A DNA stretch of 64,000 bases from a virus. Below are positions 35,876 through 56,961 of the stretch, piece by piece. Each line of letters begins with the position of its first letter. Within the stretch, counting starts at the first letter, position 1. The notes under the pieces are model-generated. The model was not told the DNA's origin, searched no databases, and was given only the letters and a program-made list of their open reading frames with translations. The stretch covers positions 45,842 to 109,841 of the IMG/VR virus record IMGVR_UViG_3300032092_000011; one strand, given 5' to 3'. Made by a program: the position numbers and the translations under genes.

Positions 35876-35961
35876 TACTCGAGGCGGGAATCGAACCCGC
35901 ACGAACCTTACGGTCCATCAGATTTTAAGTCTGACGTGTCTACCTATTCCACCACCCGAGC
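35876..35961 (-). tRNA. tRNA-Leu(TAA)
   Basis: Class II: acceptor GCTCGGG/CTCGAGT, anticodon loop CTTAAAA, long variable arm, T-loop TTCGATT. Confidence 0.95.
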
Positions 35962-35974
35962 ATGTTTAAGTATC

Positions 35975-36045
35975 TTCAATAACTTTAAGAACGTTACATC
36001 TATTATATCTGATGAAATCAGATTGTTTCATAACATGTTATTGAA
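35975..36045 (-). ncRNA. Inverted-repeat spacer between the fibre gene and tRNA-Leu
   Basis: TTCAATAAC/GTTATTGAA encloses a perfect ATCTGAT/ATCAGAT hairpin. It probably separates the fibre mRNA from the tRNA; it may also act as terminator or processing stem. Confidence 0.5.
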
Positions 36046-39000
36046 TTATCCGCAATAAAGATAACCGTAGATTCCAGTTGCCTTACCTTCACTATCAAAA
36101 GTACAATCTTCCATACATTTACCCAATGTAAATGAATTTATAGTTTGTCTTTCCTCGTATTGAGGTGTTCCATTGTCAAATCCAATAATGACATATTCAA
36201 CTGGTTGTTTCATTGCGTATCCTGGTACGTCAGAAGAACATAGTAAATCTCCTTTTAGAACTGGACCATTTTGGTTACATACTTTTATACCTTGTAATCC
36301 TGTTTTAGCATCGAATGAATCTCCTAATGAAGCAACTCTCCATATACTTTTTTGATTTCTGTCCGCCAATGGTATTTTATTTCCAAATGAATCTCTATAT
36401 TGATAATCTTTTTCTGAAGTATCTTTTCCATTTATTAAGAATCTATCTAATGGACTTTCCTGTATAGAAAAATCAACTTCTTGCCATAAAATACCAACAA
36501 TTGCCGGGTCTTTTGCAGAAGATGCTTTAACTAATTCATTGTTTCCATCTAATTTAACAAGATCTCCAACTTCTAATATAACATCATTTCTTTTAGTATA
36601 TTGGTGAGACAATGTTGTTGCTATTGCTTCTCCATATGGTTGCTCACGAGGATCTGTACCTCCTCTGTAATTTACATAGTCATCTGCGAGTAATTCAAAA
36701 TCTTGTTGATATTGAATAAAATTAGTTTTCGTTGATTCAAAATCAGTTTTAAAAGCACCAAATCTTGTAGTTCCAATGTACGCATCATTTCTCATTTTAA
36801 GCATTTGACGTGCACCTAATTCCGGATCTTCAACGATGTCAACTTCAAAGAAATCATTCATTGGACTTCCGCCTACCGTAGCACCTGAAGTAATATCAAT
36901 ATCTCCTTTAAATGCTGCGGTACCGTCTGGTGCAATATAGAAGTTTTTAGCATTGATTGCACCTAGATCTAAGTTAATACCCATACCAGCCGTAGAATAA
37001 GTATTCCATGCTGATGTGTGATTTGCTGGGAAGTTACCATTCTTAATTATACCAGTAGTTATCTTTCCACCATCAATAGTAGTGGATGTTGTTAAAAACT
37101 GAGAAGTATCTGGAGCTGGACCTTGTGGACCTGTGGCTCCCTGAATAGATTTTGCAAAACTTTGAGTTTTAGTAAAGCTAAAACTTGCACCATTTGCTCT
37201 TTTTCCAGAAATCGTGTATGTTATCGATGCTGTATTAGCTGTCATATTATTATGATCGCCAATCGTTGCATAATTACCGCTATCAGTAATACTTCCCGGA
37301 GTAATTGAACTACCTGTTCTTGTTAAAGTCCATCTACTAGCAGAGGTTCCTGATCCATCATAAATTAATTCAGTAGCTCCTTCATATAATCTTATGGTAG
37401 TTCCTGAACCAGTATAAGTAACAACACCAGCACTAGTTGTAGGTAAAGTATGCGCTTCATTACTAAGAATTACTGTCATACCATCAGTACCAGGTGCTCC
37501 ATCGATACCATTAACGCCATCAACTCCGTCTCTACCATTAACGCCATCAACTCCGTCTCTACCATTAGTACCATTAGTACCATTAGCACCATTAGTACCA
37601 TTAGTTCCTGGTTTAATTCCAGACATTGTGATTTGGTCACGTGCTAAAACTGTACCTGTTGTACCGCCTTCTCTAATCTGTACTTCTATTTTGTCAGGCA
37701 TACTGTCAAAACTAGATTGTGGAGTATATGTGTATGTTGTAGAAGTACCATTTTGAACAGATACATCATTTTTAAAGAATTGATAATATACAGTTCCGCT
37801 TGTATTTAAAGCAGCTGCAGTAATTGTAGTGCTTGTAGGAGATGGAGTTGTTCCAGAAGTATTATATACAAATACCTGATCTACACAAGTTAGGTTTACA
37901 GCTCTTGCATTTGCTCCAGCTGCACCGTCTGCTCCGTCTGCACCGTCAACACCATTAGCACCTTGAATAGATTTTGCAAAACTTTGAGTTTTAGTAAAGC
38001 TAAAGCTTGTACCATTTGCTCTTTTTCCAGTAATAGCATACACTATAGAAGCTACGTTAGCAGTCATGTTGCTGTGATCGCCAATCGTTGCATAATTACC
38101 GCTATCAGTAATACTTCCCGGAGTAATTGAACTCCCTGTTCTTGTTAAAGTCCATTTACCAGCGGTAGAACCAGATCCATCATAGACTAATTCAGTAGCG
38201 CCTTCATATAATCTTATAGTAGTTCCTGAACCAGCATATGTAACTGTTCCTGTGTTTGTTGTTGGCAGAGTATGTGCTTCATTACTAAGAATTACTGTCA
38301 TACCATCAGTACCAGGTGCTCCATCGATACCATTAACGCCATCAACTCCGTCTCTACCATCAGTACCATCAGTACCATTAGTTCCTGGTTTAATTCCAGA
38401 CATTGTGATTTGGTCACGTGCTAAAACTGTGCCTGTTGTACCGCCTTCTCTAATCTGTACTTCTATCTTGTCAGGCATGCTAGCAAAACTAGATTGTGGA
38501 GTATATGTGTATGTTGATGCTGTCCCATTTTGAACAGATACATCATTTTTAAAGAATTGATAATATACAGTTCCGCTTGTATTTAAAGCAGCGGCTGTTA
38601 TTACTGAACTAACTGGTGAAGGATTTGTTCCGGACGCATCATATACAAATACCTGATCTACGCAAGTTAGGTTTACGGCTCTTGCATTTGCTCCAGCTGA
38701 ACCGTCTGCTCCGTCTGCTCCGTCAACACCGTCAGCTCCTTTGACTAAAACCCAATTATAAAGTGATGAATCTGTTGAATCAGCTTCGGTAAAATCAGTA
38801 TAAGTTCCCATATACTCTCTACCAGTCGGATCGCTTACGCTAAAATCAATAATTTGATTGCTGCCATTTTTATTTGCATATGCAATATGTAAATATGAAG
38901 TTTGTCCATCAACACCATTAACACCAGGAAGACCATTCTCACCATTAGCTCCATCAGCACCTTTAACTAATTGCCATTTCCATAAAGTACTTCCAGATGG

Positions 39001-41013: not shown

Positions 41014-41043
41014 TTCTTAGTTATTTTATATTTTAAATATCGT

Positions 41044-41052
41044 ATTATATAT
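41044..41052 (-). promoter_or_regulatory. Late-type promoter box (ATATATAAT)
   Basis: ATATATAAT on the minus strand, 31 bases before ATG 41013 of the large fibre gene. Confidence 0.5.
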
Positions 41053-41064
41053 TTAGTTTTTTTG

Positions 41065-41149
41065 CGGAAGCTACAGGATTCGAACCTGTGGGACCGTGAA
41101 GTCCGCCACTTTAGCAAAGTGGCACGATAGACCGCTCTGACAAACTTCC
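41065..41149 (-). tRNA. tRNA-Ser(GCT)
   Basis: Class II: acceptor GGAAGTT/AGCTTCC, anticodon loop TTGCTAA, long variable arm, discriminator G. Confidence 0.94.
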
Positions 41150-41154
41150 AATGG

Positions 41155-41228
41155 GGTGACCAGTGGGGATCGAACCCACGACAACTAGAACCACAATCTA
41201 GTGCTCTACCAACTGAGCTATGGCCACC
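41155..41228 (-). tRNA. tRNA-His(GTG)
   Basis: Acceptor GTGGCCA/TGGTCAC with G-1 opposite C73, the His identity pair; anticodon loop TTGTGGT. Confidence 0.95.
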
Positions 41229-41233
41229 ATGTG

Positions 41234-41308
41234 TTGCGAGACCGGGACTCGAACCCGGAACTTCGGCTTATGAGACCGACGAGATAACCATTTTCTACGC
41301 ATCTCGCA
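41234..41308 (-). tRNA. tRNA with CAT anticodon (Met or Ile2), unusual D-arm
   Basis: Acceptor TGCGAGA/TCTCGCA, anticodon loop CTCATAA, T-loop TTCGAGT. The D-arm is less regular than in the other tRNAs. It could be elongator Met or a lysidine-modified Ile tRNA. Confidence 0.85.
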
Positions 41309-41314
41309 ATATAA

Positions 41315-41440
41315 TAAAAAGAGGTTTCGGGTCTTTCAGGGTTACTGATTATTAATGTTAAGGAGATGGGTGCACTGTCTACTCTAAACCCTTTTTCGAC
41401 CTTTTTCCATCTAATTAATAATTACAGCTTCACTACCTCT
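41315..41440 (-). ncRNA. Structured spacer between tRNA(CAT) and tRNA-Arg(ACG)
   Basis: Closed by AAAGAGGT/ACCTCTTT, then ATTATTAAT/ATTAATAAT and AGATGG/CCATCT on the same axis, giving a long interrupted hairpin of ~125 nt. No ORF. Confidence 0.6.
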
Positions 41441-41446
41441 TTTTTG

Positions 41447-41518
41447 TAGTCAATAAAGGATTCGAACCCTTATCTCTTGATCCGTAGTCAAGTGTTCTAT
41501 CCGTTGAACTAATCGACT
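41447..41518 (-). tRNA. tRNA-Arg(ACG)
   Basis: Acceptor AGTCGAT/ATTGACT, anticodon loop CTACGGA. A34 would need deamination to inosine (TadA), normally host-supplied. Confidence 0.94.
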
Positions 41519-41526
41519 AAATTATG

Positions 41527-41600
41527 TGGACCAGCCTGGGCTCGAACCAGGGACCTACGCATTATGAGTGCGGTGCTCTAACCAACTGAGCTACAAGTCC
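41527..41600 (-). tRNA. tRNA with CAT anticodon (Met or Ile2)
   Basis: Acceptor GGACTTG/CTGGTCC, anticodon loop CTCATAA, regular D-arm GCTC/GAGC. Elongator Met or Ile(CAU). Confidence 0.93.
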
Positions 41601-41606
41601 ATTTTG

Positions 41607-41677
41607 CACGGGTGGAGAGATTCGAACTCCCATCGACGGTTTTGGAGACCGGAATGCTACCATTGCACCACACCCGT
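41607..41677 (-). tRNA. tRNA-Trp(CCA)
   Basis: Acceptor ACGGGTG/CACCCGT, anticodon loop CTCCAAA, discriminator G. Confidence 0.95.
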
Positions 41678-41679
41678 AA

Positions 41680-41818
41680 ATTAAGGAAAAGAGAAGATGG
41701 TTCAGTGGACATCTCTTTTTACAATCGGCTTTACTTTGGTTTATACCTGCAAACTCCGATAATAACGATCAGTATAAACTCTTGAATCATAGTTATTATC
41801 ATTCCCCGATTAACCTTA
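41680..41818 (-). ncRNA. Pseudoknot-containing spacer between tRNA-Trp and tRNA-Tyr
   Basis: GATAATAAC pairs with GTTATTATC (9 bp), while GTTTATAC inside that loop pairs with GTATAAAC downstream (8 bp): an H-type pseudoknot. An outer AATCGG/CCGATT helix and an AAAAGAG/CTCTTTT hairpin flank it. No ORF. Confidence 0.65.
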
Positions 41819-41819
41819 G

Positions 41820-41901
41820 TGCCTGCAGAAGGACTCGAACCTCCGAACCCGTAAGGGAGCTGATTTACAGTCAGCTGCAATTGCCGCTATGCGATACAGG
41901 C
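41820..41901 (-). tRNA. tRNA-Tyr(GTA)
   Basis: Class II: acceptor GCCTGTA/TGCAGGC, anticodon loop CTGTAAA, long variable arm. Confidence 0.95.
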
Positions 41902-41973
41902 AAATTCCAATTTTGATGGGCTCATCTGATAATATGTTTCAATTACCCAGCACTTGAGATTGGGAACTCCTAG
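41902..41973 (-). ncRNA. Short structured spacer between tRNA-Tyr and tRNA-Val
   Basis: CCAAT/ATTGG and TGGG/CCCA helices; weak evidence beyond the pattern shared with the other inter-tRNA gaps. Confidence 0.35.
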
Positions 41974-42048
41974 TACATCTTGAAGGATTCGAACCTCCGA
42001 CCCTCTCGGTGTAAACGAGATGCTCTAAACCAACTGAGCTAAAGATGC
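41974..42048 (-). tRNA. tRNA-Val(TAC)
   Basis: Acceptor GCATCTT/AAGATGT, anticodon loop TTTACAC. Confidence 0.95.
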
Positions 42049-42051
42049 ATG

Positions 42052-42149
42052 GCGCTTCATATTATTCACAATTGATAATCATATTGGATTATCCACTCAA
42101 ACTTACGACAGCTTTTAACTGAGAGATCGTAAGATTGTGTATGAAGCAT
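42052..42149 (-). ncRNA. Three-way-junction RNA between tRNA-Val and tRNA-Lys
   Basis: Closing stem GCTTCATA..CACAAT with ATTGTG..TATGAAGC, then two hairpins, CTTACGA/TCGTAAG and GATAATC/GATTATC. ~98 nt, no ORF. Confidence 0.65.
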
Positions 42150-42152
42150 GTG

Positions 42153-42226
42153 TGACCCCGACAAGATTCGAACTTGTGACTCCCTCATTAAAAGTGAGGT
42201 GCTCTAGCCAACTGAGCTACGAGGTC
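42153..42226 (-). tRNA. tRNA-Lys(TTT)
   Basis: Acceptor GACCTCG/CGGGGTC, anticodon loop CTTTTAA. tRNA-Lys is the usual target of the PrrC anticodon nuclease. Confidence 0.95.
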
Positions 42227-42229
42227 AAA

Positions 42230-42318
42230 TTTCGTCTTTTCCTTACCGCTTACTATTCACATTGCCAGTCCGAAGTTACTGTCGGATGCTTACTTCTTTC
42301 GAAGAGTCAATAGTACAT
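42230..42318 (-). ncRNA. Structured spacer between tRNA-Lys and tRNA-Gly
   Basis: TACTATT/AATAGTA closes two hairpins, CTTC/GAAG (loop GAAA) and TCCGA/TCGGA. No ORF. Confidence 0.5.
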
Positions 42319-42320
42319 TG

Positions 42321-42392
42321 AGCAGGTAGAGAGAATCGAACTCTCATCTCCAGATTGGAAGTCTGGAGTAATAGCCGTTATACGATACCTGC
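42321..42392 (-). tRNA. tRNA-Gly(TCC)
   Basis: Acceptor GCAGGTA/TACCTGC, anticodon loop CTTCCAA, discriminator T. Confidence 0.95.
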
Positions 42393-42398
42393 TTGTTG

Positions 42399-42474
42399 TC
42401 GGATAGGCAAGATTCGAACTTGCGTGCTCTGCATCCCAAATGCAGCGAGATAAACCTAACTCCTCTACTATCCG
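42399..42474 (-). tRNA. tRNA-Pro(TGG)
   Basis: Acceptor CGGATAG/CTATCCG, anticodon loop TTTGGGA, discriminator A. Confidence 0.95.
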
Positions 42475-42483
42475 TTTATTTTG

Positions 42484-42556
42484 TGGTGCGGGGCAGGATC
42501 GAACTGCCGACACCAGGATTTTCAGTCCTGTGCTCTACCTACTGAGCTACCGCACC
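42484..42556 (-). tRNA. tRNA-Phe(GAA)
   Basis: Acceptor GGTGCGG/CCGCACC, anticodon loop CTGAAAA, discriminator A. Confidence 0.95.
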
Positions 42557-42562
42557 AAGTTG

Positions 42563-42632
42563 AGTACAAGGTTGGAATCGAACCAACTCCGCAGATTTTG
42601 CAGACCTGCTGGCCTCCAAGACCAACTCGTAC
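42563..42632 (-). tRNA. tRNA-Cys(GCA)
   Basis: Acceptor GTACGAG/CTTGTAC, anticodon loop CTGCAAA, discriminator T (U73 is the Cys identity base). First tRNA after the array promoter. Confidence 0.95.
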
Positions 42633-42949: not shown

Positions 42950-43168
42950 TTATTGATTTTTATCAAATTTTTTACAATCAATTTTTCCTACTTCCTGATA
43001 AGCTTGAAATAAGAGTGTTAAAGCTTCATCGACTTTGGTCGAAACTTCTTTCTCTAGCTTACATACTGGATGCTGTAATATATGGTCATCTATTGTACTC
43101 ATAATTACATGAAGTCGATCCAGCATTTCATGATAATGAAATTTATCTAATTTATCTTTTACACTCAT
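42950..43168 (-). CDS. Hypothetical protein, 72 aa
   Basis: Helical, no family recognised. The start overlaps the PAP2 stop by 4 bases. Confidence 0.65.
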   Translation of the reverse strand: MSVKDKLDKFHYHEMLDRLHVIMSTIDDHILQHPVCKLEKEVSTKVDEALTLLFQAYQEVGKIDCKKFDKNQ

Positions 43169-43863
43169 ATAAATGAATCTAGTGTTACTATTTTAAGACC
43201 GCATAATTTATCGCAAATTTCTCTAGAAAAATCTTGATCTGATTGATAGTGAATTCCGCCTTGTACTCTAGTGTGTGCAACTTTATCACAAAACTCTGCA
43301 ATTTTTTCTGCATGTTCTGGATATTTTTGACCAAGAATAGAAGCAATCATATATGAATCAAGAGCATGTCCACTTGGGTACGATGCAGTTGCAGCATTAG
43401 TCGGGCAAACTTGAAACATTCCAATTCCTAAAGGTCTTGCTAATTGCCATGGTCTTGCTCTATTATAATAATTCTTTAATTTATAAAGAAGAGGATCTGT
43501 AAAATCTGCGATTTTCTTTATTAAATCTTCATTGTCATCTAAACCTAACTCTTCTAGAAATTCGCCAATCACTTCATTAATATCTTTTTCAACATCTTCA
43601 ATTAACTCAATATCTTTATCAGTTAAATTATTTTGTTGTTTTAAAATGCTTTGTAATTCTTCAGCAGCTTCTGGACTTGAATTCTTTGGAAAAGGCTTGT
43701 TAAAGAATTCTTCTAAGATTCCTTTTTCACGACACATCTTCATAACAAGAGGTTCTTCTTCAACCATATATGTTTTACGATGTTTTAATGCTTCATTACC
43801 ATAACCAAGCATATCAATTTGGTTAAAGTCAGCAAACTCATTATATGATTTAATTTTTGCCAT
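43165..43863 (-). CDS. PAP2-family phosphatase, soluble, 232 aa
   Basis: All three PAP2/haloperoxidase motifs are present: KLKNYYNRARPW (K-x6-RP), YPSGHALDS (PSGH) and HTRVQGGIHYQSDQ (R-x5-H-x3-D). No transmembrane helices are visible, unlike most lipid phosphatases. The N-terminus MAKIKSYNEFADF resembles the T4 leader MKTYQEF, so it may be virion-packaged. Substrates could be lipid or nucleotide phosphates. Confidence 0.85.
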   Translation of the reverse strand: MAKIKSYNEFADFNQIDMLGYGNEALKHRKTYMVEEEPLVMKMCREKGILEEFFNKPFPKNSSPEAAEELQSILKQQNNLTDKDIELIEDVEKDINEVIGEFLEELGLDDNEDLIKKIADFTDPLLYKLKNYYNRARPWQLARPLGIGMFQVCPTNAATASYPSGHALDSYMIASILGQKYPEHAEKIAEFCDKVAHTRVQGGIHYQSDQDFSREICDKLCGLKIVTLDSFI

Positions 43864-44986: not shown

Positions 44987-45394
44987 TTATATTGTTGAAT
45001 AATTAAGCATTGTATTAGACCCAGAATCTACAATTTTAAGTCCTTCATTTCGGTCAATAAATAACCATTCACAATCAGTTAAATCAAATTTATTTAGATG
45101 GTCAATAACTTCTGATACTTCAAAACACGAACATGAGTAAATATCAAATTGAAACATTGCTGGATCTTGTTTATCCCAAACATGTATTGCAGCATGTGAT
45201 GTTGCTAATGTTACTGTTCCGGTAATTCCTTCATTTCCAGGTTCATCTACATAAACAGAAGTTGGACCTGCAACTACTACCATTCTTACTTTTTTAACTA
45301 GTTCTCTAAACCAATTGTTTAAAACTTCTTCTGATTTTGGTGGGTTTTTCATGTGACCTTTTACTAAAAGGTGTAAATGATTTGGCGTAAACAT
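44987..45394 (-). CDS. S-adenosylmethionine decarboxylase-like protein, 135 aa
   Basis: The core TLATSHAAIHVWDKQDPAMF followed by QFDIYSCSCF resembles SpeH-type AdoMet decarboxylases (SHxxIHxWPE...D.FTC). The Pro-Glu of the usual motif is missing, so activity is uncertain. It could supply polyamine precursors for DNA packaging, or it could be a repurposed fold. A late-type box is 22 bases upstream. Confidence 0.6.
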   Translation of the reverse strand: MFTPNHLHLLVKGHMKNPPKSEEVLNNWFRELVKKVRMVVVAGPTSVYVDEPGNEGITGTVTLATSHAAIHVWDKQDPAMFQFDIYSCSCFEVSEVIDHLNKFDLTDCEWLFIDRNEGLKIVDSGSNTMLNYSTI

Positions 45395-45443: not shown

Positions 45444-45896
45444 TTATTGATGTTTGATTATCTGATTTACTGCATTTAAGAATAACCAATCTTCGACATT
45501 TTCTAATTTACATAAAAAATTATATTCATACACGTATGCATCATGTTCTTCCTTTTTCTCTGTTAATTTAATCTTAGCTCTCCAAACATATAGGTGGTAT
45601 GATTCGTGAACCAGGATGGCCGCAATATTATTAATTGAATTCATATTCATATCTCTAACAGTGATTGCTATTGTACTCGGAAGTTTCGTCGTTGAATGGT
45701 CACCAATAATAAATTCAACCTCTTTACAATGGTCAATTAATAATTTATAAGCATTTGAATCTTTCTCTTTAATTAGAGAAATGGCTGAATCTACCTTAGA
45801 TTTCCAGCCATCTCCAACATCATCGATTTTGATTTGTCCAAAAAGAGTATTTGTGATTAATAAGAATACGAATATTAAGGCATTTTGGTAACGCAT
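45444..45896 (-). CDS. Secreted putative zinc metallopeptidase, 150 aa
   Basis: Signal peptide ending in NTLFGQ (Bacteroidetes type). The zinc-site motif LVHESYHLYV (HExxH) lies near residue 95, with several downstream acidic residues. A short catalytic domain, family not identified. It overlaps the CsgG-like gene by 22 bases and is probably exported with that envelope module. Confidence 0.72.
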   Translation of the reverse strand: MRYQNALIFVFLLITNTLFGQIKIDDVGDGWKSKVDSAISLIKEKDSNAYKLLIDHCKEVEFIIGDHSTTKLPSTIAITVRDMNMNSINNIAAILVHESYHLYVWRAKIKLTEKKEEHDAYVYEYNFLCKLENVEDWLFLNAVNQIIKHQ

Positions 45897-46327
45897 TGTT
45901 CAATAGCTCTTTTTAACGCGTTTGATACTGTCATTTTTGAGAATGGAACTTTACCATCAACGAGTTCAATCATTACTGCTCGAACTTCAGTTTCAGACTC
46001 TCCAAATCCTTCATATTTTTGGCCTTTATAATAGAATCTAACACCAACTTGAGTTACTTGATTAGTTTTTTCAACTCCTGCAATTCTAATAGTTGTTTTA
46101 GGAATTCCAAAATAAAATACTTCAATTTTAACTGGTTCCCCTTTTTCTGACAAACAATATTTTGCTGATAACATGTCTTCAGCAATTTGCTCAATACCAA
46201 ATTTAATATCTCTATTGCCAAGTTCTCTTAATTTTGCAGTTGAATAAACTGTGTCTATTTTAACACATTCTTGCGAGAATACAAAAACTGGCATTAAAAA
46301 TAATATAATTAATAATAAATTTTTCAT
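45875..46327 (-). CDS. Short CsgG-family-like exported protein, 150 aa
   Basis: Signal peptide ending PVFVFSQ. The region TNQVTQVGVRFYYKGQKYEG then VSNALKRAIEQC parallels the larger CsgG-like protein at 49.7 kb (TQITRLGLQVRF...SLETAAARIV). It is shorter than true CsgG and may be an accessory or trimmed pore subunit. It shares its first base with the lectin gene end. Confidence 0.6.
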   Translation of the reverse strand: MKNLLLIILFLMPVFVFSQECVKIDTVYSTAKLRELGNRDIKFGIEQIAEDMLSAKYCLSEKGEPVKIEVFYFGIPKTTIRIAGVEKTNQVTQVGVRFYYKGQKYEGFGESETEVRAVMIELVDGKVPFSKMTVSNALKRAIEQCVTKMP

Positions 46328-48081
46328 TAGTTAGCGAATCCTGTTTTTATCAGATAGAACGTTGAAGAACCACCTGCTGTTGGGTTAGTTAAAGTTACAG
46401 TTTGAGTACCTGGATATGTTGCAGACAAATTAGATGTTGATGTGTTTATAATACTCCATTCGGTATTTGTAAATAATCTATATGACGGTACTGTAAACGC
46501 GTTTCCATTAATTCTTTTATAGATTAAATAAACATCAGATATTGTTAAATTAGAATTTCCATTGGTATTCATTCTATAATAATCTTTAGCATTAAATGTT
46601 TGTGATAATACCTTTTGATTAAATATTGCTGCGTCAGCTGTGCTAGGTGCTGAAAAAGTTAAACCATCAATAGTTACTTGAAAATCATAACTAGCAATAT
46701 CTAATGAAGTTGAAATTGTAAATACTCCAGAACTATTAGTATTATATGTTTGTAATAACGTATATGTTGATCCTGCTTTTGTTTTATAATATAACTTAAC
46801 AGTGATATTTTGAACACCAATTCCTTCAGAATTATAAATAGTTCCTGAATAAGTAAATGGGGTTGGATAATTTACAGTTGCAACAACTGGGGTTCTTGTT
46901 GAACTAACACATCCAGTTGATGAATTTCTAGCTTGTACGTAATAAGTTGTAGTTGCTGAAATACTGGGTGTTGTAAATGATAGCGTTCCAGATCCACCAG
47001 ATAAAACGTTACCTCCAGTTGCATTAGCATACCAATCTGCAGTAATTCCAGTTCCAGTGGTTGCTGATAATGATACTGTTCCAGCAAGAGTTCTACTTCC
47101 ATCAACTCCAGTCGGCGCAGATGGTGAAGTTGCAGGACTACATGCAATTTGATGAGTAACAAAACCTGTATAAAATTGAGTAAATGTTTGATTTGCTGGA
47201 TCTGTCCATGTACCAAACTCAACTACATATCCACCGACACTTGAAAAATTACCATCACGTAAATCATTCCAGTTGCTATTTCCGTTCCATTTAGTTACAG
47301 CATGGTCTTCTCCAATTGAACCATCTGAATTATTAGGTTCTCCACCAGCCCATGCTGAATATCGACCGGGTGCTGTTGTTCCAGTGGATCCGTATGACCA
47401 TGTTGTTGCATTAGTAACAGAAGTAGATGCAGTCCAAATAACAGTTCCAGTTTCTGGTCCAGCATCAATTCTCCAAGATCCTTCTTGAGTTGCATCAGAT
47501 AAAGCTATCCAAATATTACTTACAGGTACATTTGCAAAGATAAAATTCTGTTCATCAGCATCCATGATATTTGCTAAATATCCAGTTTGACCTTTAAATG
47601 TTTGGGCAGCAGCTGCACTTTTTGCAGAAGAATAAGATACTGCACCGGTGATTGGTCGATAAAAGTGACCATTTGATGGTAAGTAAAAATATCCAGTTGG
47701 ATTTTCGGTTGCAGTTACTGCAATATAAAGATTTCCTGGAACTGAACCAGTATTTACTCTTAATGAAGCTAATACAGTATTAATATTTGATTGGGTACCA
47801 GTAAAACTAATTCTAGTAAAATTAGATGTTATGTTATAACCAGTACTTGCTGATACACCAGAAGTAGTATTAAATCGCAAAGTTGTTCCAGCTGGAGGAT
47901 TTACTAATCCAACAGTAACTAATAAAGTTGTAGTTGAATTAAATCCAGAAACAGAAAAGCCAGAAGCGCTTTGATTTGAAGTACTTTGATTGTATGAAGT
48001 TGCTGACGGACTTGTAACACTTTGTGTAAATCCATCTAATGTTAATAAAACACATGTTAGAAATATTAATAATCTTTTCAT
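46327..48081 (-). CDS. Secreted C-type-lectin adhesin with Ig-like and dockerin-like modules, 584 aa
   Basis: Signal peptide 1-20 (LTLDGFTQ). Residues ~20-120 form a beta repeat. A C-type lectin domain (~125-300) follows, with WIALSDATQEGSWR, WAGGEPNNSDG and WNDLRDG (the EPN sugar-specificity motif is intact). Then come an Ig-like domain (~320-405, TTYYVQARNSSTGCV) and a C-terminal module with the dockerin-like NGNSNLTISDVYLI that is also present in the T9SS adhesin at 51.1 kb. It would bind glycans outside the host cell or on the virion. Confidence 0.82.
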   Translation of the reverse strand: MKRLLIFLTCVLLTLDGFTQSVTSPSATSYNQSTSNQSASGFSVSGFNSTTTLLVTVGLVNPPAGTTLRFNTTSGVSASTGYNITSNFTRISFTGTQSNINTVLASLRVNTGSVPGNLYIAVTATENPTGYFYLPSNGHFYRPITGAVSYSSAKSAAAAQTFKGQTGYLANIMDADEQNFIFANVPVSNIWIALSDATQEGSWRIDAGPETGTVIWTASTSVTNATTWSYGSTGTTAPGRYSAWAGGEPNNSDGSIGEDHAVTKWNGNSNWNDLRDGNFSSVGGYVVEFGTWTDPANQTFTQFYTGFVTHQIACSPATSPSAPTGVDGSRTLAGTVSLSATTGTGITADWYANATGGNVLSGGSGTLSFTTPSISATTTYYVQARNSSTGCVSSTRTPVVATVNYPTPFTYSGTIYNSEGIGVQNITVKLYYKTKAGSTYTLLQTYNTNSSGVFTISTSLDIASYDFQVTIDGLTFSAPSTADAAIFNQKVLSQTFNAKDYYRMNTNGNSNLTISDVYLIYKRINGNAFTVPSYRLFTNTEWSIINTSTSNLSATYPGTQTVTLTNPTAGGSSTFYLIKTGFAN

Positions 48082-49664
48082 TACAATAACATTCTAGTTC
48101 CCATCATCACTGTATAATTTAGGGCAGCATCTTTAATAGCCCAAGCTCCACCAACATTAATATTTATTTTAAATCTTTTTGTGATACCGACATTAGTTCC
48201 AATGATAGGTAAAACTACATGAGGTGATTTTAATAATATATCGTTATAATAACTAACATATGGGGCGTAAACATAGAGTAACATTGTTTTAACTGCGATT
48301 CTCTTATTTACATTCCAATCATGCATTCCTCCGGCAATTACGGCAGTTCCAATAAAAGGTTCTCCATAAACTTGACCAGAAGAAGCTGTTAACATATAAA
48401 CAAGCTTCATATTTTTAGGCTTATTAAGCGTCCACATCTGTCCTAACGCTAATGTTCCATAAAGAGTTGGCTTAGCTTCAAATCCAATTGTTACTGAAGT
48501 TGAAATTAGGTCAATTCTTTTTGGTTTCATAAATGCATAGAATCCTGTAATATTTGGACCTCTAAGTGCAGAAGTGTAATCAGCATTTATACCCCAACTT
48601 CTTCTACCATCCCATCTCATTGATGTTAAACCACCTGTAACTTTACCACCGTAAGTAACATCAGAATTCTTAAAGTTGAACCCAACAAAATCACTACTTG
48701 CTAAAATTGAAGGTCTATTTCCATTTTTTGCGCCAGCTCCCGCTGCTTTATTATTTCCACCAGAACTTCCACTACCATCTCCAGAAGAAGATCCAATTGA
48801 ATTTACTGAGCTTCCAACTAAGTTTGTTTTCCCTTCGCTTTCTGATCCAGTTGTTCCTGTTTCTTGAGAATTTCCTTGGCCCGAACCATTGCCTGTTCCA
48901 GTTCCATTCCCGCCTGAACCAGTATTGCCGCTATTCTGACCTGATCCGTTGTTGGTTGTTGATCCTGTAGTTCCTGAGCCTTGCGAACCAGATCCGGTTG
49001 AACTCGAACCTTGCGAACTTGTGCCGGTTGAACTTGATCCTGTGGTTCCTGAACTTTGCGAACTTGTGCCGGTTGAACTTGATCCGCCCTGTGTGCCATT
49101 TTGGTTTCCCTGTCCATTATTAGATCCAGTGCTACTTGAGTTATTGCCAGTCCCGCTACCATTGCTAGAACCACTAGACACATTATTGTTACTATTGTTT
49201 CCATTTGATTGGTTATTTTTATTACCACCTTTAGATCCAGAACTAGAATTTCCACCGGTAGAAGTTTGCATACTACCAACACTTCCACCCAGCATATTAC
49301 TAGTTCCAGTTGCCATATCTGCTAATGATGATAATGAGTTAACAATACCTAAAAAATTAATAGCAGAACTTTGAGCAACTGTTACAGCAGCTGGCATACC
49401 AACAACGCTAGCACATGGATTATTATTACCAAACGATGAAAAAACACCTTGCGCCCAAGACTCGAACGTTCCACTGTAAAAGTCTCCTGGCGCAAATGTT
49501 CTAATTTGTCCGTAATATGTTACAGTAACTCCATTAGAAGGTACCGATATTGTTTTTATTGCTCCAGTACATGGATCAGTGTATGAATATGAAATTGTCT
49601 GTCCATAAGATACTCCTGAAAATAACAAGAAAAACAAGAAGATGATAAGATTTTTAACATACAT
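48081..49664 (-). CDS. Outer-membrane barrel protein with long Ser/Gly/Thr/Asn linker, 527 aa
   Basis: Signal peptide 1-22 (SGVSYGQ), a small N-terminal domain to ~135, then ~170 residues of low complexity (SSTGTSSQGSS type), and a C-terminal ~200-residue beta-barrel ending with aromatic/hydrophobic alternation (VMMGTRMLL). It fits an outer-membrane protein exposing a flexible tether. It shares one base with the lectin gene and follows the CsgG-like gene by 2 bases, so the three are coupled. Confidence 0.72.
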   Translation of the reverse strand: MYVKNLIIFLFFLLFSGVSYGQTISYSYTDPCTGAIKTISVPSNGVTVTYYGQIRTFAPGDFYSGTFESWAQGVFSSFGNNNPCASVVGMPAAVTVAQSSAINFLGIVNSLSSLADMATGTSNMLGGSVGSMQTSTGGNSSSGSKGGNKNNQSNGNNSNNNVSSGSSNGSGTGNNSSSTGSNNGQGNQNGTQGGSSSTGTSSQSSGTTGSSSTGTSSQGSSSTGSGSQGSGTTGSTTNNGSGQNSGNTGSGGNGTGTGNGSGQGNSQETGTTGSESEGKTNLVGSSVNSIGSSSGDGSGSSGGNNKAAGAGAKNGNRPSILASSDFVGFNFKNSDVTYGGKVTGGLTSMRWDGRRSWGINADYTSALRGPNITGFYAFMKPKRIDLISTSVTIGFEAKPTLYGTLALGQMWTLNKPKNMKLVYMLTASSGQVYGEPFIGTAVIAGGMHDWNVNKRIAVKTMLLYVYAPYVSYYNDILLKSPHVVLPIIGTNVGITKRFKININVGGAWAIKDAALNYTVMMGTRMLL

Positions 49665-49665: not shown

Positions 49666-50385
49666 TTATGATTTAAAGATTCCTTTTTTAATCATACGAC
49701 TTACAATTCTTGCTGCGGCTGTTTCTAGTGACTTCTTAGTTGTAATACCAATATGAGATTGATTGAATTTAATTTCACTATCGTCAATTCCATCTAGAAT
49801 TGAAACAGTTTTAACCGTTTTAGCCTCTCCTAATCCAGATCCGACTAAAACTTCTCCAGTCTCAGCATCAACAAAGCGAACTTGAAGACCTAAACGCGTA
49901 ATTTGTGTTGTTTGAGATTGTCCATTAATTTTTACAACCTCATCATCAGATACTGAAAAGTCATATACCTCAATATAAACAAAGTATTTAGCAAGTTTAA
50001 TTTTACCCTTGCCATCCATTGTATTTTCAGTAAATCCTTTTGCTGATGCTTTAAATTGGTTAATCATTCTTTCTTTGATTTCCAATTTATCTTCAGTAAA
50101 TACGAATCGGTTTGTATATTCTAAATATTCTAATACAATATTAGTTACACCAAGACCAACTCTTTTGTCCTTTAATTCAGGGTACATTTCATATAGTTCT
50201 TCGCTGATTCCAATTTTTAAGATTTGAATTGGAATCTTAATAGTGTCTTTATATTCAGGTACCGAATCAATTGACATTTTCTTTTCAAAGTCAGCTTGGT
50301 ACTGCTCAGACTTGATAGTTCCGATCTGAGCAGTTGCCATAGCTACATTGAAAATTAAACAAATTAAAAGTGCTAATTTTTTCAT
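49666..50385 (-). CDS. CsgG-like outer-membrane secretion/pore protein, 239 aa
   Basis: ATG 50385 gives a signal peptide ending MATAQ. The body matches the CsgG family: RVGLGVTNIVLEYLEYTNRF, then YFVYIEVYDF, TRLGLQVRFVDAETGEVL and AAARIVSRMIKKG. CsgG forms a nonameric outer-membrane channel for curli subunits. Unlike CsgG, no lipobox Cys is evident at the cleavage site. Here it probably serves the adjacent phage-encoded exported proteins, or forms a lysis pore. Confidence 0.8.
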   Translation of the reverse strand: MKKLALLICLIFNVAMATAQIGTIKSEQYQADFEKKMSIDSVPEYKDTIKIPIQILKIGISEELYEMYPELKDKRVGLGVTNIVLEYLEYTNRFVFTEDKLEIKERMINQFKASAKGFTENTMDGKGKIKLAKYFVYIEVYDFSVSDDEVVKINGQSQTTQITRLGLQVRFVDAETGEVLVGSGLGEAKTVKTVSILDGIDDSEIKFNQSHIGITTKKSLETAAARIVSRMIKKGIFKS

Positions 50386-50386: not shown

Positions 50387-50749
50387 TTAAACATCTGTTG
50401 TATTTGATAGAGAAACTCCATCTTCTTCATCAACTTTTTGAATTAACATTTTGTCTCTGTCTTCTGAATTGAACCAATAATCTACAACTTTATTAAGATT
50501 ACCAACAAAGGCTCCTAATAAGATTAATAACATTTCTTTCCAATCTTCACCGACAGTTAATCCAAACATAATTCCTGCATTAATTCCTAATATGATAAAG
50601 AAAAATAAGAATAATACTATTCCTGTAATTTTCCAACGATTAGATTGCATTTGTTGTAACATAAAATAGAATCGATTTTTATCTTCTACTTTTATGTAAT
50701 CTTCTTTACCAAATCCTAACATTTTCTTAATTGACATAAAGATATTCAT
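50387..50749 (-). CDS. Two-helix membrane protein (holin-like), 120 aa
   Basis: Two hydrophobic segments (ITGIVLFLFFFIILGI and a second near residue 80) with charged ends. Size and location beside the endolysin region fit a holin or antiholin. No family recognised. Confidence 0.65.
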   Translation of the reverse strand: MNIFMSIKKMLGFGKEDYIKVEDKNRFYFMLQQMQSNRWKITGIVLFLFFFIILGINAGIMFGLTVGEDWKEMLLILLGAFVGNLNKVVDYWFNSEDRDKMLIQKVDEEDGVSLSNTTDV

Positions 50750-50756: not shown

Positions 50757-51098
50757 TTACCAAGGAGCGTCTTCAGTTTCGCTCTTTTTCTCTTTTTTCT
50801 TCTCTTCTTTCTTTTCAGTTGCTGGTTTTTCAACAACTCTTTCACGAATGATCGTGTTAGTTCCACCACCATTTGATGAATTATTTTGAGATGAGTTATC
50901 AACATTTAAGTTAATAACAGGTTGCGCTGGAGCAGCTTGTTCAGTTTTGGTTTCTTCCTTATCGTCACCACCATTGAAAAGTGTAGTAGTAACCCAAGTA
51001 CCGCCAGCTAAAACTGCTGTTGAAAGAGTACCGATTAAGGTTTTCTTTAAACCTGACCAAGTACCATCATTAGTCTCTACGTTTTGTTCGTCTGACAT
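50757..51098 (-). CDS. Single-pass membrane protein with charged tail, 113 aa
   Basis: A hydrophobic segment near residues 20-40 (LIGTLSTAVLAGGTW), then an Asn/Ser-rich linker and a Lys/Glu-rich tail (EKKEEKKKEKK). No family recognised; lysis-region neighbour. Confidence 0.65.
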   Translation of the reverse strand: MSDEQNVETNDGTWSGLKKTLIGTLSTAVLAGGTWVTTTLFNGGDDKEETKTEQAAPAQPVINLNVDNSSQNNSSNGGGTNTIIRERVVEKPATEKKEEKKKEKKSETEDAPW

Positions 51099-51119: not shown

Positions 51120-53051
51120 TTAGTTTTTAATAATTCTAACCGATCCCTTTTGACCAGTTGCTTGTAAAGTTCCAAAATATAAGCCTTGCGCGACATGATT
51201 GATATTAAAATCATAATTATAAACTCCAGCAGGCATATCTTTATCAAAAATAACATGTATTGGTCGACCATTCATATCATATACTTCTAATCTAACTCGA
51301 CCTGTATTTTTAACTTCGAATTTAATATTTGCGTAACCAGTGGTTGGATTTGGATAAACCATCATTTTAGTTTCTTCTTCAGTTACACCAATTGTACTTG
51401 GCGCTGACATTTTAAATACAACTAAAATACCATTAGTTGGAGAAACTGATAAATCTTTAGAATTTACATCTCCTGAAAACTTTCTAGTAGTTGCAAGAGG
51501 TGACTGACCCCATTGATTTTGTGGTCTTTTTGCAATAAATCTTAGTTTAAAAACTTCATATCCGTCAGGAATCATATAATCTTTATTTACAGATGGGTCA
51601 TAACCTGCCCATTCAATCATATCGTCCATTGGATTAAGAGAAGACATCCAAAACATTGCTTTTGGCGAGTTTTTAATATCTTTAAATTCTAATAAACTAT
51701 CATTATAAATTAAACCTAATTGAAGTGAAGATACTTCTAAACCATTAGTATTAACAACTACTGGAAGTTCAACTAAGTTGCCTTCAGTAACTGTTAGGTG
51801 TGGTAGGTTCACTTCAATATTGTTAGTTGGAAAATCATATTCAACCTTCATGTCAATCACATTTTCAATAGCGGCTGGTGTGCCGGGTTGAGGATTTGTG
51901 GTAACTTCAATTGGCGTTAAACGCGCCATGTTATAACCAGTACCGTTCGCATCACCAGGAACTAGAACATAGAATTGAACTGAATCAGGTTGACCTGGTA
52001 AAATATTATAATAGAAATTAGTTACACCAGGAATAGATGAAGTATAGTTAGTTGCAGGTGTACCAGTGATAGTATTCTTTTCAGATACTGTAAAGAATTT
52101 AACATCTTTTACACCATTGGGCCAAGCTGAAAATCTTCCGGCAATTCTACCAAATACACCATAAGCATCGGTGATTGAGATATTATTAGATCCATTAACA
52201 TCGCCAGTGTAGAAATCCCACGCTGATGGAGTTGCAGATCCTAGTACCCATTGATTAATTAATTGAGCATCTGCTGTTGAAATTACGTTGCCAACAGTCA
52301 TTGTATCACCTTTAATTGCTAAACGAACATCATAGTATGTTGTATCAATTAATTCAGTAAATGCAAAATCGCCATTTAAATCAGTAGTGTAAGATGCATG
52401 TTGAGACCAAGTTGATCCAGTTTTAACTTTCTTTTCTAATGCCAATGTTAGGTTTTTAGCACCAGTTCCAGTTACGTTTGTAAATGTACCATGGAAATTA
52501 AGTTCTGGCTTTTCCCATACACCACCATAACTATGTAAAGTTAAAGTTGTGTCCATACCATCTTGAGTAGCTGCAACTTGAGAATACGTTGCAGAACCAG
52601 TCCATGTTAAATCAGAAATTGCAGAAAGAGCATAGAAAGAAGATGCAGTAACGTGTGTGAATGTCATTTCAAATCTTTCTCCATCTGGAATTTCATACGT
52701 AGATGACGAACCTGTATAAACAACGGTAGCGGTAAGATAACCGCCAGCATTATTGTCAACAAATTGTAAGTTTAAGTTTGATGTAGAACCTAATAGAGCA
52801 ATAGAAGCTGCTGAAAAGGCATTTTTATCATAAAAAATTCTAAACTGATAACCAGTTATTAGAGTTGAAGTGGTGTTTTGAACTGTTAATTTGGCTTTTG
52901 ATTGAGCCTGAATACTAGTACCGACTTGGTATGTTGTATCGATAATAACATAGATTCCATTACCTGGTGCCGGAGGTCCTGTTTGAGAGAAACCAACGAA
53001 TGGAGTAATGAAAGCTAATAGAATGAGTAGATTCTTTAAAAAGTTTTTCAT
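51120..53051 (-). CDS. Secreted cohesin/dockerin-like adhesin with type IX sorting domain, 643 aa
   Basis: Signal peptide ending FVGFSQ. A cohesin-like beta domain (~25-165) is followed by a CNA-B-like module, a dockerin-like stretch DVNGSNNISITDAYGV (~290), a second cohesin-like domain (~430-550), and a C-terminal domain (~565-643) with MMVYPNPTTGYANI, VYDMNGRPI and a final KGSVRIIKN. That last domain is the type IX secretion sorting signal used by Bacteroidetes. The protein should be exported by the host T9SS and attached to the surface or released. Confidence 0.85.
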   Translation of the reverse strand: MKNFLKNLLILLAFITPFVGFSQTGPPAPGNGIYVIIDTTYQVGTSIQAQSKAKLTVQNTTSTLITGYQFRIFYDKNAFSAASIALLGSTSNLNLQFVDNNAGGYLTATVVYTGSSSTYEIPDGERFEMTFTHVTASSFYALSAISDLTWTGSATYSQVAATQDGMDTTLTLHSYGGVWEKPELNFHGTFTNVTGTGAKNLTLALEKKVKTGSTWSQHASYTTDLNGDFAFTELIDTTYYDVRLAIKGDTMTVGNVISTADAQLINQWVLGSATPSAWDFYTGDVNGSNNISITDAYGVFGRIAGRFSAWPNGVKDVKFFTVSEKNTITGTPATNYTSSIPGVTNFYYNILPGQPDSVQFYVLVPGDANGTGYNMARLTPIEVTTNPQPGTPAAIENVIDMKVEYDFPTNNIEVNLPHLTVTEGNLVELPVVVNTNGLEVSSLQLGLIYNDSLLEFKDIKNSPKAMFWMSSLNPMDDMIEWAGYDPSVNKDYMIPDGYEVFKLRFIAKRPQNQWGQSPLATTRKFSGDVNSKDLSVSPTNGILVVFKMSAPSTIGVTEEETKMMVYPNPTTGYANIKFEVKNTGRVRLEVYDMNGRPIHVIFDKDMPAGVYNYDFNINHVAQGLYFGTLQATGQKGSVRIIKN

Positions 53052-53064: not shown

Positions 53065-53886
53065 TTATTTTAAAAGGTTGTAGTATTCTTTGAAATGCTT
53101 AATACGATCAGCAAGACCAATTGTACCACCGTTTACTCTTTTAGTTACTGCAGTAACTGTAGCATCATCAGCACCTCTATCACAAATAGACCATAATCCA
53201 TTTGAATTAAAGAAGAATGCAGCAGAAGCTAAAGGATATTTAGTTGCAACTAAATCAGGATTTGCAATAGTATCTTCACCAATAAATTTAGCAAAGTTTG
53301 TGTAGTTTGATTTACCAGTTAATTGGATATAACCTCTACCACGGAATTTAAATCCTTCTTTTGATGCCTCATCTCCATTACCCATTCTAGATGCGTAAAC
53401 CTTTGATGCAATTTTTTCAGGGTTTCTAGCATATCCAGCTGCTGTAGTTGCATTGAAATACTTTCCAAAGATTTTTACTAATCCATCAGCTGAATAATTA
53501 AGATTTTCTGAAACTGCCTTGAAGCCGCCACTTTCATGTCCACATTGTGCTAGAAAATGAGCAAGTCTTAATGTATTTGTAATTCCAAACTTAGCAGCAG
53601 TATCTGGAATTTGTGCAATAACGGCGTCAGGAATATGTCCTTTTAAAGCCTCTAACTTAAATTGAGAAGCTGGAATTGAAACTGGAGCTGCGGTCGATGC
53701 AGAAGATCCGAACATCTTTCCCCAAGTTCCATCACCAACAATACCATCTGGTGTTAAACCATTTTTTGATTGCCAAGCCTTTACAGCTTCAGTAGTTTTT
53801 GGTCCAAATGAACCATCGGCCGGAAGGCCTAATTTTTCTTGTAATTTTTTAACGTCTTCACCTGAAGACCCTACTTTTAGTAACAT
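53065..53886 (-). CDS. Endolysin: peptidoglycan-binding plus GH19 domain, 273 aa
   Basis: An N-terminal PG-binding domain (VKKLQEKLGL...GSFGPKTTEAVKAW, 1-60), linker, then a GH19 chitinase-like lysozyme domain: LAHFLAQCGHESGGF (catalytic Glu), FKFRGRGYIQLTGKSNY and the VTKRVNGG tail. It has no signal peptide, so it depends on a holin. It lies 21 bases after the two-helix gene at 53.9 kb. Confidence 0.93.
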   Translation of the reverse strand: MLLKVGSSGEDVKKLQEKLGLPADGSFGPKTTEAVKAWQSKNGLTPDGIVGDGTWGKMFGSSASTAAPVSIPASQFKLEALKGHIPDAVIAQIPDTAAKFGITNTLRLAHFLAQCGHESGGFKAVSENLNYSADGLVKIFGKYFNATTAAGYARNPEKIASKVYASRMGNGDEASKEGFKFRGRGYIQLTGKSNYTNFAKFIGEDTIANPDLVATKYPLASAAFFFNSNGLWSICDRGADDATVTAVTKRVNGGTIGLADRIKHFKEYYNLLK

Positions 53887-54321: not shown

Positions 54322-54912
54322 TTATCTGCAGTTACATTTAAATTTAGTGTAATCTGAGTTTAGTGGTTTAACATTTGGAAAGAAATAACAGTCAATATTA
54401 TTTCCGTACCTAACAGTTTTATAGAATCCGGTTGGAATTGCAGCACCAGATGACAATCTAGTTATTTTATTAAATTCAACTTTGATAGTTACATAGACAT
54501 CGTATCTTTTTGCAAGCTCTCGTTCAGAAATTTCTAGCATTTTCCATGGTCCACGATTTAGGCTTTGTTGTTGAAGTGCTGAATTAGCGTATGAGAAAGT
54601 TGTACGCAGCATTGTTGTGTTGCAGTTAAAAGATGCGGCTGGGGCCATGTGACCTTTATCCCATTCATTTGCAACATAATCAGCATTATCAGAAGTTTTA
54701 AGACCTGGCACCGTATAGAAATCCATACCCGATCTTGATGCAGTTCCAGTTGGACATAAAACTTTATATTCAACTGCTCTAGGCTGTTCTAATACTTCTG
54801 AATAGAGAATCTTAAAATACTCGTTTTGAACTACAACACTGTCTCGAAGAGTTTGTGACCACCCTGTGACAGCTGTCAAGGTGATTAATAGAAATAATAA
54901 TAATTTTTTCAT
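54322..54912 (-). CDS. Secreted DNA/RNA non-specific endonuclease, 196 aa
   Basis: ATG 54912 gives a signal peptide (MKKLLLFLLITLTAVTGWSQ). The catalytic motif is WDKGHMAPAA (His88, usual DRGH), and the metal-site Asn region is YANSALQQQSLNRGPW. It is a NucA/Serratia-type betabetaalpha-Me nuclease. It would act in the periplasm or outside the cell, for example clearing extracellular DNA or excluding other phages' DNA. Confidence 0.88.
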   Translation of the reverse strand: MKKLLLFLLITLTAVTGWSQTLRDSVVVQNEYFKILYSEVLEQPRAVEYKVLCPTGTASRSGMDFYTVPGLKTSDNADYVANEWDKGHMAPAASFNCNTTMLRTTFSYANSALQQQSLNRGPWKMLEISERELAKRYDVYVTIKVEFNKITRLSSGAAIPTGFYKTVRYGNNIDCYFFPNVKPLNSDYTKFKCNCR

Positions 54913-54922
54913 TAGTCTGGTT

Positions 54923-55165
54923 TTATTTATTAGCTTCAATCAATATAGTAATACCAGCTGCTCCAGCCGATATCATATATTTATTGTATCTATTATCATT
55001 TAACCAGCCATATTTTTTAAACTCAAATATGATAGTATCTTTATCCTCAAACCAGACATGTATCGCATTTGTTGCATAATCTATTGATGGATGTTTCATT
55101 AAACCCAATTTCCAACTTTCTCTATATTCTTCCTTTAATTCGTCGGGTGTTATATGAATAATCAT
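54923..55165 (-). CDS. Hypothetical protein, 80 aa
   Basis: Contains NAIHVWFEDKDTIIFEF, loosely similar to the core of the AdoMet-decarboxylase-like protein at 45 kb. No firm family. One base separates it from the thioesterase stop region. Confidence 0.6.
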   Translation of the reverse strand: MIIHITPDELKEEYRESWKLGLMKHPSIDYATNAIHVWFEDKDTIIFEFKKYGWLNDNRYNKYMISAGAAGITILIEANK

Positions 55166-55833: not shown

Positions 55834-56961
55834 TTAATTACTTAAAGGTGCCTTAATTTCAGGCTGTGATTTATAGTTTACTAATTTAATTGAGTTTCTA
55901 TCAATTTTTTCAAAAGCAGTTATGTACCCTTGAGTTTTTTCGTATTCAAAATCCAAATTAATAGTTGGTAGTTCTAAAGGTTCGCGACTGATTTGTTCTT
56001 TTGCCTGCTCAAGATGATTTAAATACAAATGAGTATCTCCAAGATTTCCAATCAATTCATCAGGAACCATGTTAACTCGCTTAGCCAACATTTCCAATAA
56101 TAGACCATAAGAAGCAATATTAAATGGTAAACCTAAGAATGTATCGACTGATCGTTGATTCCACATTAAAGAGATTGCTCGTTTTGGAACAGGGTATAGT
56201 TTATCAATTTCATCATGGTCAATTTTAGCAGGATGACCAAAATCAAATGGGTCAAATACGCTATATGTTTTTGCTGCTAAATCTAATCTTTCTGATACAT
56301 TTAGCTCTCTTGTATAAACTTGAAATCCATAATGACAGGGTGGAAGTGTCATTTTATCAAGATCTGCAACATTCCAAGCGTTAACCATCAGGCGTCTAGA
56401 ATCTGGATTCCTTTCAAGATCTGCAATAAGTCGAAGTATTTGGTCATACCAAAGAGAACCATGTCCAGTTGAACCATCATTATTTTTATATTGCATCCAA
56501 CCTTGCCATTGTCTCCATTGTTTACCATAAACTGGGCCAAGTTCTCCCCAAACTTTTGAGAATTCTGGCCAATTCTTAATTGCATCAACAAATTCAGCTT
56601 CGGTCATAATACGAATCTTAGACTCTTCAAGATCCTCAACATGAACACTCATATCTGGCTCTTCTAAGTTAGAGGCATACTGTTTATATTTCTTGTAGGC
56701 ATCTCCATTCCAAATATTACAACCATTATCAACAAGATATTTGATATTAGTGTCGCCCTGTAAAAACCAGAGCAGTTCAGTTACCATTGACTTAAATGCC
56801 ATTTTCTTAGTTGTCAAAAGAGGATAACCTTCAGACATTTTATGGCGGATCTGGCGACCAAAAACAGAAATCGTACCAGTTCCAGTACGATCTTTTTTAA
56901 CTATGCCATTTTCAAGAATATCTTTTAATAAATCTTGGTATTGTTTATCAATATTATTCAT
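55834..56961 (-). CDS. thyA: Thymidylate synthase
   Basis: 375 residues, longer than E. coli ThyA (264) owing to inserts near residues 85-160. Key motifs are KDRTGTGTISVFGRQIRH (N-terminal Arg loop), MLPPCHYGFQVY-type PPCHYGFQVY with the catalytic Cys, MWNQRSVDTFLGLPFNIASY, and LGDTHLYLNHLEQ. It converts dUMP to dTMP with methylene-tetrahydrofolate, serving phage DNA synthesis with the deoxyribonucleotidase at 11.5 kb. Confidence 0.95.
   Translation of the reverse strand: MNNIDKQYQDLLKDILENGIVKKDRTGTGTISVFGRQIRHKMSEGYPLLTTKKMAFKSMVTELLWFLQGDTNIKYLVDNGCNIWNGDAYKKYKQYASNLEEPDMSVHVEDLEESKIRIMTEAEFVDAIKNWPEFSKVWGELGPVYGKQWRQWQGWMQYKNNDGSTGHGSLWYDQILRLIADLERNPDSRRLMVNAWNVADLDKMTLPPCHYGFQVYTRELNVSERLDLAAKTYSVFDPFDFGHPAKIDHDEIDKLYPVPKRAISLMWNQRSVDTFLGLPFNIASYGLLLEMLAKRVNMVPDELIGNLGDTHLYLNHLEQAKEQISREPLELPTINLDFEYEKTQGYITAFEKIDRNSIKLVNYKSQPEIKAPLSN

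Follow-up and report, generated by a model that had tools for sequence, protein, structure and literature searches.

Why would a bacteriophage encode a protein addressed to a secretion machine of its host? The question is raised by a 64,000-nucleotide stretch of viral DNA (the window), which covers positions 45842-109841 of a 109,841-bp IMG/VR virus record and holds a gene, here called COH, whose predicted product combines cohesin- and dockerin-like domains with a C-terminal sorting domain (CTD) of the type IX secretion system (T9SS). A first-pass annotation had read COH as a lone phage adhesin exported through the host machine. The observation proved to be real, since the CTD-bearing protein was confirmed, and the gene is part of a conserved operon rather than isolated.

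Sorting signal and domains of COH

The last ~80 residues of COH had been taken for a T9SS sorting signal, and profile searches bear this out. Pfam PF18962 (Por_Secre_tail) matches residues 565-636 at E 2.9e-10 with 40.7 bits, the cut-off being 27, and the NCBIfam profile for the 'T9SS type A sorting domain', TIGR04183, matches residues 565-643 with 38.7 bits against a cut-off of 23, spanning positions 1-72 of the 72 in the profile and lying at the extreme C-terminus, in the last 79 residues. PF18962 was found in 31/31 full-length homologues, and a profile built from these sequences recovered from the PDB the T9SS CTDs 8glk, 8glj and 8qb1, as well as the cohesin 6kg8 and the scaffoldin dockerin region 4uyp. 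Residues P567, P569, G595, G623 and Y625 of the domain are invariant. Moreover, the pairwise ratio of non-synonymous to synonymous divergence (dN/dS) in the CTD is mostly 0.1-0.2, slightly higher than in the remainder of the protein, and the domain is therefore retained under purifying selection. Close homologues of COH, with 63-70% identity, occur in seven IMG/VR records. In the COH genes of loci L077, L078, L080 and L083, dS is 0.02-0.06 in the CTD versus ~0.48 elsewhere in the gene, which suggests recombination exchanging the CTD or the body of COH.

At the other end of the protein a Sec signal peptide is predicted by a heuristic scan with a simple rule, used here throughout without SignalP, and the residue Q23 that would follow cleavage is invariant in the alignment of 31 homologues. 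Altogether, signal peptide, CTD, conservation and purifying selection support well the export of COH by the host T9SS, so that the earlier claim of a cohesin/dockerin protein exported by the host machine holds as a prediction from sequence.

Between both signals, the C-terminal cohesin domain (PF00963, residues 413-514) scores 32.8 bits versus a cut-off of 24.1 and was found in 27 of the 31 homologues. The N-terminal region is named cohesin-like only, because its hhalign match to the C-terminal cohesin is weak (E 0.023). The dockerin-like part lies between them; Dockerin_1 stays below the cut-off in the window COH (14.6 bits, residues 256-296) and is significant in 8/31 homologues (best E 2.5e-6).

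A conserved seven-gene module

In the window, COH is part of a compact operon of seven genes in the order COH - g16 - HOL - g17 - g18 - LEC - g19 (Table 1), with intergenic gaps of -22 to 21 nt if g17 starts at the ATG at 50385, which is likely the true start, the TTG start being an artefact. With g17 as bait, 118 relatives were found and 80 IMG/VR loci were kept; a CTD-bearing protein adjoins g17 in 80/80 of them, and given this way of collection g17 implies a CTD protein, the converse not being implied. The records compared are mostly incomplete fragments. After dereplication to 36 lineages, including the window and the cultured phage described below, the core order was found to be kept with minor changes, and the genes flanking the module, together with their strands, differ among lineages.

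Searches of whole records showed that PF18962 occurs exactly once per record in 30/30 phage records, and likewise once in the source record of the window. A hydrophobic N-terminus followed by a cleavage site of the type A-x-A before Q, the Q-rule of Bacteroidetes (PMC10653852), is present in nearly all members of the exported families: 30/36 for COH, 30/33 for LEC, 34/36 for g17, 34/35 for g18 and 29/32 for g19. PHROGs gave no informative match for COH, g16, g17, g18, LEC or g19, and in the 50,697 records of INPHARED the CTD-like tblastn matches, at the limits used, were the cultured phage and three metagenomic records. No integrase was found in 19 phage records searched, which is consistent with a lytic life.

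Table 1. Predicted features of the module and its borders (window coordinates, strand in brackets).
Feature	Coordinates	Description	Remarks
COH	51120..53051 (-)	Predicted T9SS-targeted cohesin/dockerin scaffold protein, 643 amino acids, ATG start	80/80 related loci
COH Sec signal peptide	52986..53051 (-)	Predicted cleavage before Q23 (Q-rule)	Heuristic
COH N-terminal region	52575..52898 (-)	Cohesin-like domain, weak	PF00963 18.6 bits, below cut-off
COH central region	51936..52493 (-)	X-module and dockerin-like module	Calcium loop 52164-52286; homologous to LEC tail
COH C-terminal cohesin	51510..51815 (-)	Cohesin domain	PF00963 E 9e-8; PDB cohesin 6kg8
COH CTD	51120..51359 (-)	Type A T9SS C-terminal sorting domain, stop codon included	PF18962, TIGR04183
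g16	50757..51098 (-)	One hydrophobic segment (one transmembrane helix), charged Q/N-rich tail	Conserved, 33 representatives
HOL	50387..50749 (-)	Two-transmembrane inner-membrane protein	Holin label provisional; 29 representatives
g17	49666..50385 (-)	Predicted exported protein, CsgG (curli pore) fold	
g18	48081..49664 (-)	Predicted exported protein; disordered linker and 12-stranded outer-membrane beta-barrel	Barrel 48084-48710
LEC	46327..48081 (-)	Predicted exported lectin	Dockerin-like C-terminal tail 46330-46857
g19	45875..46327 (-)	Small predicted exported protein	Weak TraT/YajG-type similarity
Frequent extra exported cassette protein	45444..45896 (-)	150 amino acids, weak DUF2268	Signal peptide with Q 19/22
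Endolysin	53065..53886 (-)	Peptidoglycan-binding and GH19 domains	13 nt upstream of COH, same run; PHROG 181 E 1.8e-69

A lectin with a matching tail

The carbohydrate-binding part of the system is a separate protein, the predicted lectin LEC, whose dockerin-like tail matches a module of COH; the reading of COH as a lone adhesin had missed the operon. By hhalign, the LEC tail and COH residues ~203-370 are homologous (Prob 99.9, E 4.8e-33), and a hidden Markov model of the shared module matches nearly all LEC proteins, the weakest with E 2.6e-15. The calcium-loop motif was detected in 30/32 LEC (versus 0.7% of shuffled sequences) and in 32/34 COH (versus 3%), and Dockerin_1 is significant in 7/31 LEC. 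The heads vary, with Lectin_C in 25/31, Laminin_G_3 in 13/31 and PA14 in 2/31. LEC is without a CTD, and a search covering COH and LEC members found no glycoside-hydrolase family on either.

Predicted envelope proteins of the module

Structure models were predicted from alignments of the window and IMG/VR sequences, the cultured phage being left out. The AlphaFold2 model of g17 (34 sequences) has a mean predicted local distance difference test (pLDDT) score of 70. Its best Foldseek match is the CsgG structure 4uv2 (E 6.3e-8), the first 24 ranks being all curli CsgG, and VIA-align places CsgG first (Z 12.2, along most of the length), with PelC as the next family (9.9). As for the two amphipathic transmembrane hairpins that form the CsgG pore, the model shows candidate long strands at 150-169 and 172-189, with low confidence at 215-221. 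Membership of g17 in the curli family was considered and dropped, since a Pfam CsgG search of its own record and sequence searches against the PDB were negative; Pfam CsgG matches 2/35 g17 sequences only. Moreover, neither CsgF nor curlin was found in 12 phage records, with controls matching in E. coli, and the lipobox pattern of an N-terminal lipidated cysteine occurs in 5/36 g17 only, most of them showing Sec/Q cleavage. The protein is thus retained as a fold match.

In the g18 model (33 sequences), residues 83-118 form a helix, 120-313 are disordered and 319-526 make up a 12-stranded barrel, where pLDDT is mostly 85-93. The best Foldseek match is FapF (E 1.9e-7) and the best VIA matches are the NalP/EspP autotransporter barrels (Z 23.9); the aligned range takes in the region of the helix, a candidate plug. 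In both models the matches speak for fold rather than function. As for g19, TraT matches 2/32 members (E 0.0018).

Carriers and hosts

A homologous operon, with a more distant COH, is found in a cultured phage, Flavobacterium phage vB_FspM_immuto (Immutovirus; host Flavobacterium sp. LMO8). In this phage COH is split: gp14 keeps a signal peptide with the N-terminal and dockerin-like part, and gp15 carries its own signal peptide, the cohesin and the CTD, an arrangement that may be taken as a Rosetta-stone hint of binding between the two halves. A published study of Baltic Flavobacterium phages treats the host LMO8, not Immutovirus (PMC7077304). As the annotation had supposed, the COH gene belongs to a phage, because it lies in a virus record, has an endolysin among its neighbours and has this counterpart in a cultured phage.

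A search of bacterial genomes found g17 in four contigs of metagenome-assembled genomes (MAGs), and SprA, the T9SS pore, was detected in 3/4 of the MAGs whose contigs hold the module. A relative of the module (L095) sits in a MAG labelled Sphingomonadaceae where SprA was not found, probably a mis-binned phage contig. Recent pick-up from a host, or acquisition as a moron, was rejected: searches found no g17 in 198 other Flavobacteriaceae genomes and no COH minus its CTD in 148, the sole match to the COH body, of 26% identity over part of it, being in the MAG that holds the phage contig.

A model for the module and its alternatives

On balance, the module probably represents a virus-made, trans-envelope system of surface display, where the host T9SS exports a cohesin scaffold on which lectins dock. 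During infection, COH would enter the periplasm by Sec, and the host T9SS (SprA/PorV/PorU route) would read its type A CTD and export it, leaving a scaffold anchored on the cell surface or released there. LEC, a putative lectin of the C-type/ConA-like kind whose dockerin-like tail carries the calcium loop, would dock on the COH cohesin, as the fusion and split in Immutovirus and the module common to both proteins suggest, and docking may take place already in the periplasm, with LEC riding out with COH. The proteins g16, HOL, g17, g18 and g19 may form an envelope assembly; speculatively, the CsgG-like g17, the g18 barrel and the inner-membrane g16 and HOL would accompany the scaffold and perhaps provide an exit or anchor for LEC. 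That such a phage display apparatus of inner-membrane proteins, CsgG-like ring and barrel builds a cohesin-dockerin lectin coat together with the host T9SS is proposed tentatively. With a similar reserve, the coat might occupy the surface glycans of the infected cell itself, which are the probable receptors of phages, thereby shutting out rivals or sparing the loss of progeny on spent cells. Among possible roles we would thus favour superinfection exclusion, followed by adhesion or aggregation, with a part in lysis or in the virion less likely.

Several points weigh against this model. Secretion, surface location and cohesin-dockerin binding are predictions from sequence, and the exclusion role is conjectural; an endolysin gene as neighbour points to late expression, a time at which exclusion helps less. 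The dockerin has one canonical calcium loop and a degenerate repeat, and is significant in Pfam for a minority of members. Finally, at a pLDDT of 70 the g17 model is of moderate confidence, and its likeness to a fold is no proof of a pore.

The nearest alternative overlaps the display model, from which it departs in the export route of LEC: a curli-like or autotransporter-like secretion pore of the phage would export LEC without the T9SS, COH being its sole client. The best matches of g17 to CsgG and of g18 to FapF and autotransporter barrels, with the helix within the aligned range, agree with it, as does the lack of a CTD in LEC; on the other hand, the absence of CsgF and curlin repeats from the 12 phage records, the inconsistent lipobox and pore hairpins that are not established in g17 leave it a possible but doubtful explanation. 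Rather unlikely, to a degree close to the former, is that the exported lectin scaffold serves adhesion or aggregation, sticking infected cells or debris to cells or particles and keeping progeny near new hosts. The diverse and swapped LEC heads, the predicted extracellular location of both COH and LEC and the endolysin gene that immediately precedes COH in the window, compatible with late expression, would all fit; sequence cannot separate adhesion from the coat, however, and the glycan targets are hypothetical.

That g16, HOL, g17, g18 and g19 span the envelope and help to rupture the outer membrane, with COH and LEC as accessories, is improbable. Although the module combines a pair of inner-membrane proteins with exported proteins and a barrel of the outer membrane, and an endolysin or nuclease gene lies near it in many loci, the endolysin neighbour is inconstant, on either side and either strand, no part in lysis is known for a lectin, a cohesin or a T9SS CTD, and no spanin-like features were noticed in the sequences read, no search aimed at spanins having been made. 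Even less credit can be given to COH and LEC as tail-fibre or decoration proteins of the virion with an incidental CTD-like domain, a very unlikely reading despite the fact that cohesin, lectin and Ig domains generally occur in fibres and that fibre-like collagen proteins are encoded elsewhere in the same genome. Against it stand the Q-rule signal peptides on nearly all exported members, the CTD retained in 31/31 homologues with low dN/dS, and neighbours from nucleotide metabolism, lysis and tRNA genes in place of tail genes; it was also judged unlikely because the cohesin and CTD of Immutovirus form a separate protein, gp15, with its own signal peptide.

Genomic surroundings

The endolysin occurs in 20 representatives at a variable position. 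Further upstream, at 54322-54939 (-), lies the gene of a DNA/RNA non-specific endonuclease for which a signal peptide is predicted; its homologues shift around the module, the one in Immutovirus being gp12. Directly downstream of the module lie an S-adenosylmethionine decarboxylase (44987-45394) and a PAP2-superfamily protein (43165-43863 (-)). Two giant proteins of ~1,650 amino acids, at 632-5572 and 36046-41013 (-), are rich in collagen triple-helix repeats and are probably fibres. A set of 25 tRNA genes with many anticodons extends over 28414-42632 (-). A sugar nucleotide enzyme similar to NAD-dependent epimerases/GDP-mannose dehydratases (27517-28395 (-)) possibly serves a change of surface glycans. 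Two thymidylate synthases are encoded in one phage record, at 55834-56961 (-) and at L098:7123-8100 (-), one being ThyA-like by sequence and the other a match to a thymidylate-synthase PHROG.

Comparison with known systems

With the CsgG curli channel, whose fold group also includes PelC, LptE and TraT, g17 shares a model likeness along most of its length; unlike CsgG, most g17 proteins are without the lipobox pattern, no CsgF or curlin partner was found and pore hairpins are unproven. In the same line, g18 would share with FapF and classical autotransporters a 12-stranded outer-membrane barrel with a preceding helix in the aligned range, and differs in a disordered linker of ~200 amino acids from helix to barrel and in the lack of detectable sequence similarity. 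The module also sets apart a family of phage proteins that are modelled with a CsgG fold and an outer-membrane barrel.

COH resembles the type A T9SS cargo of Bacteroidota (TIGR04183/PF18962) in its Sec signal peptide and above-cut-off C-terminal sorting domain, and differs in being phage-encoded, one per genome and set in a dedicated operon. Phage genes with T9SS CTDs have been reported twice, and the conserved module is a variant of that theme. In Cryophage, hijack of the system for superinfection exclusion was suggested (Bellas 2020, PMC7468147), and a BACON/T9SS open reading frame was described in a crAss-like phage (de Jonge 2019, PMC6949934). In those cases the cargo consists of flexible or variable enzyme or PA14/BACON genes, whereas here one conserved cohesin/dockerin cargo lies in a seven-gene module with a cultured representative. 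In the literature searched, in which the Immutovirus description was not covered, neither the module nor its lectin-dockerin partner nor the two proteins with CsgG fold and barrel were found described. The apparent use of the host T9SS by viruses of Flavobacterium-type bacteria, to place a sugar-binding complex on the surface of the infected cell, is seldom noted. The dedicated, conserved set contrasts with an occasional cargo gene, and suggests that many lytic Bacteroidota phages may remodel the surface of the infected cell through the host T9SS.

Finally, the cellulosome scaffoldin likewise combines cohesin with X-module and dockerin, a counterpart of its dockerin-bearing subunits being the lectin with its dockerin-like tail; unlike the cellulosome, the module is viral and T9SS-targeted, with no dockerin-bearing glycoside hydrolases seen in it. 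If the display model is true, a lytic phage lineage would build a surface complex of viral origin that resembles a cellulosome and whose lectin heads can be exchanged, and the pair of Immutovirus immuto and Flavobacterium sp. LMO8 makes the role of such exported, sugar-binding and seemingly non-structural phage proteins testable.
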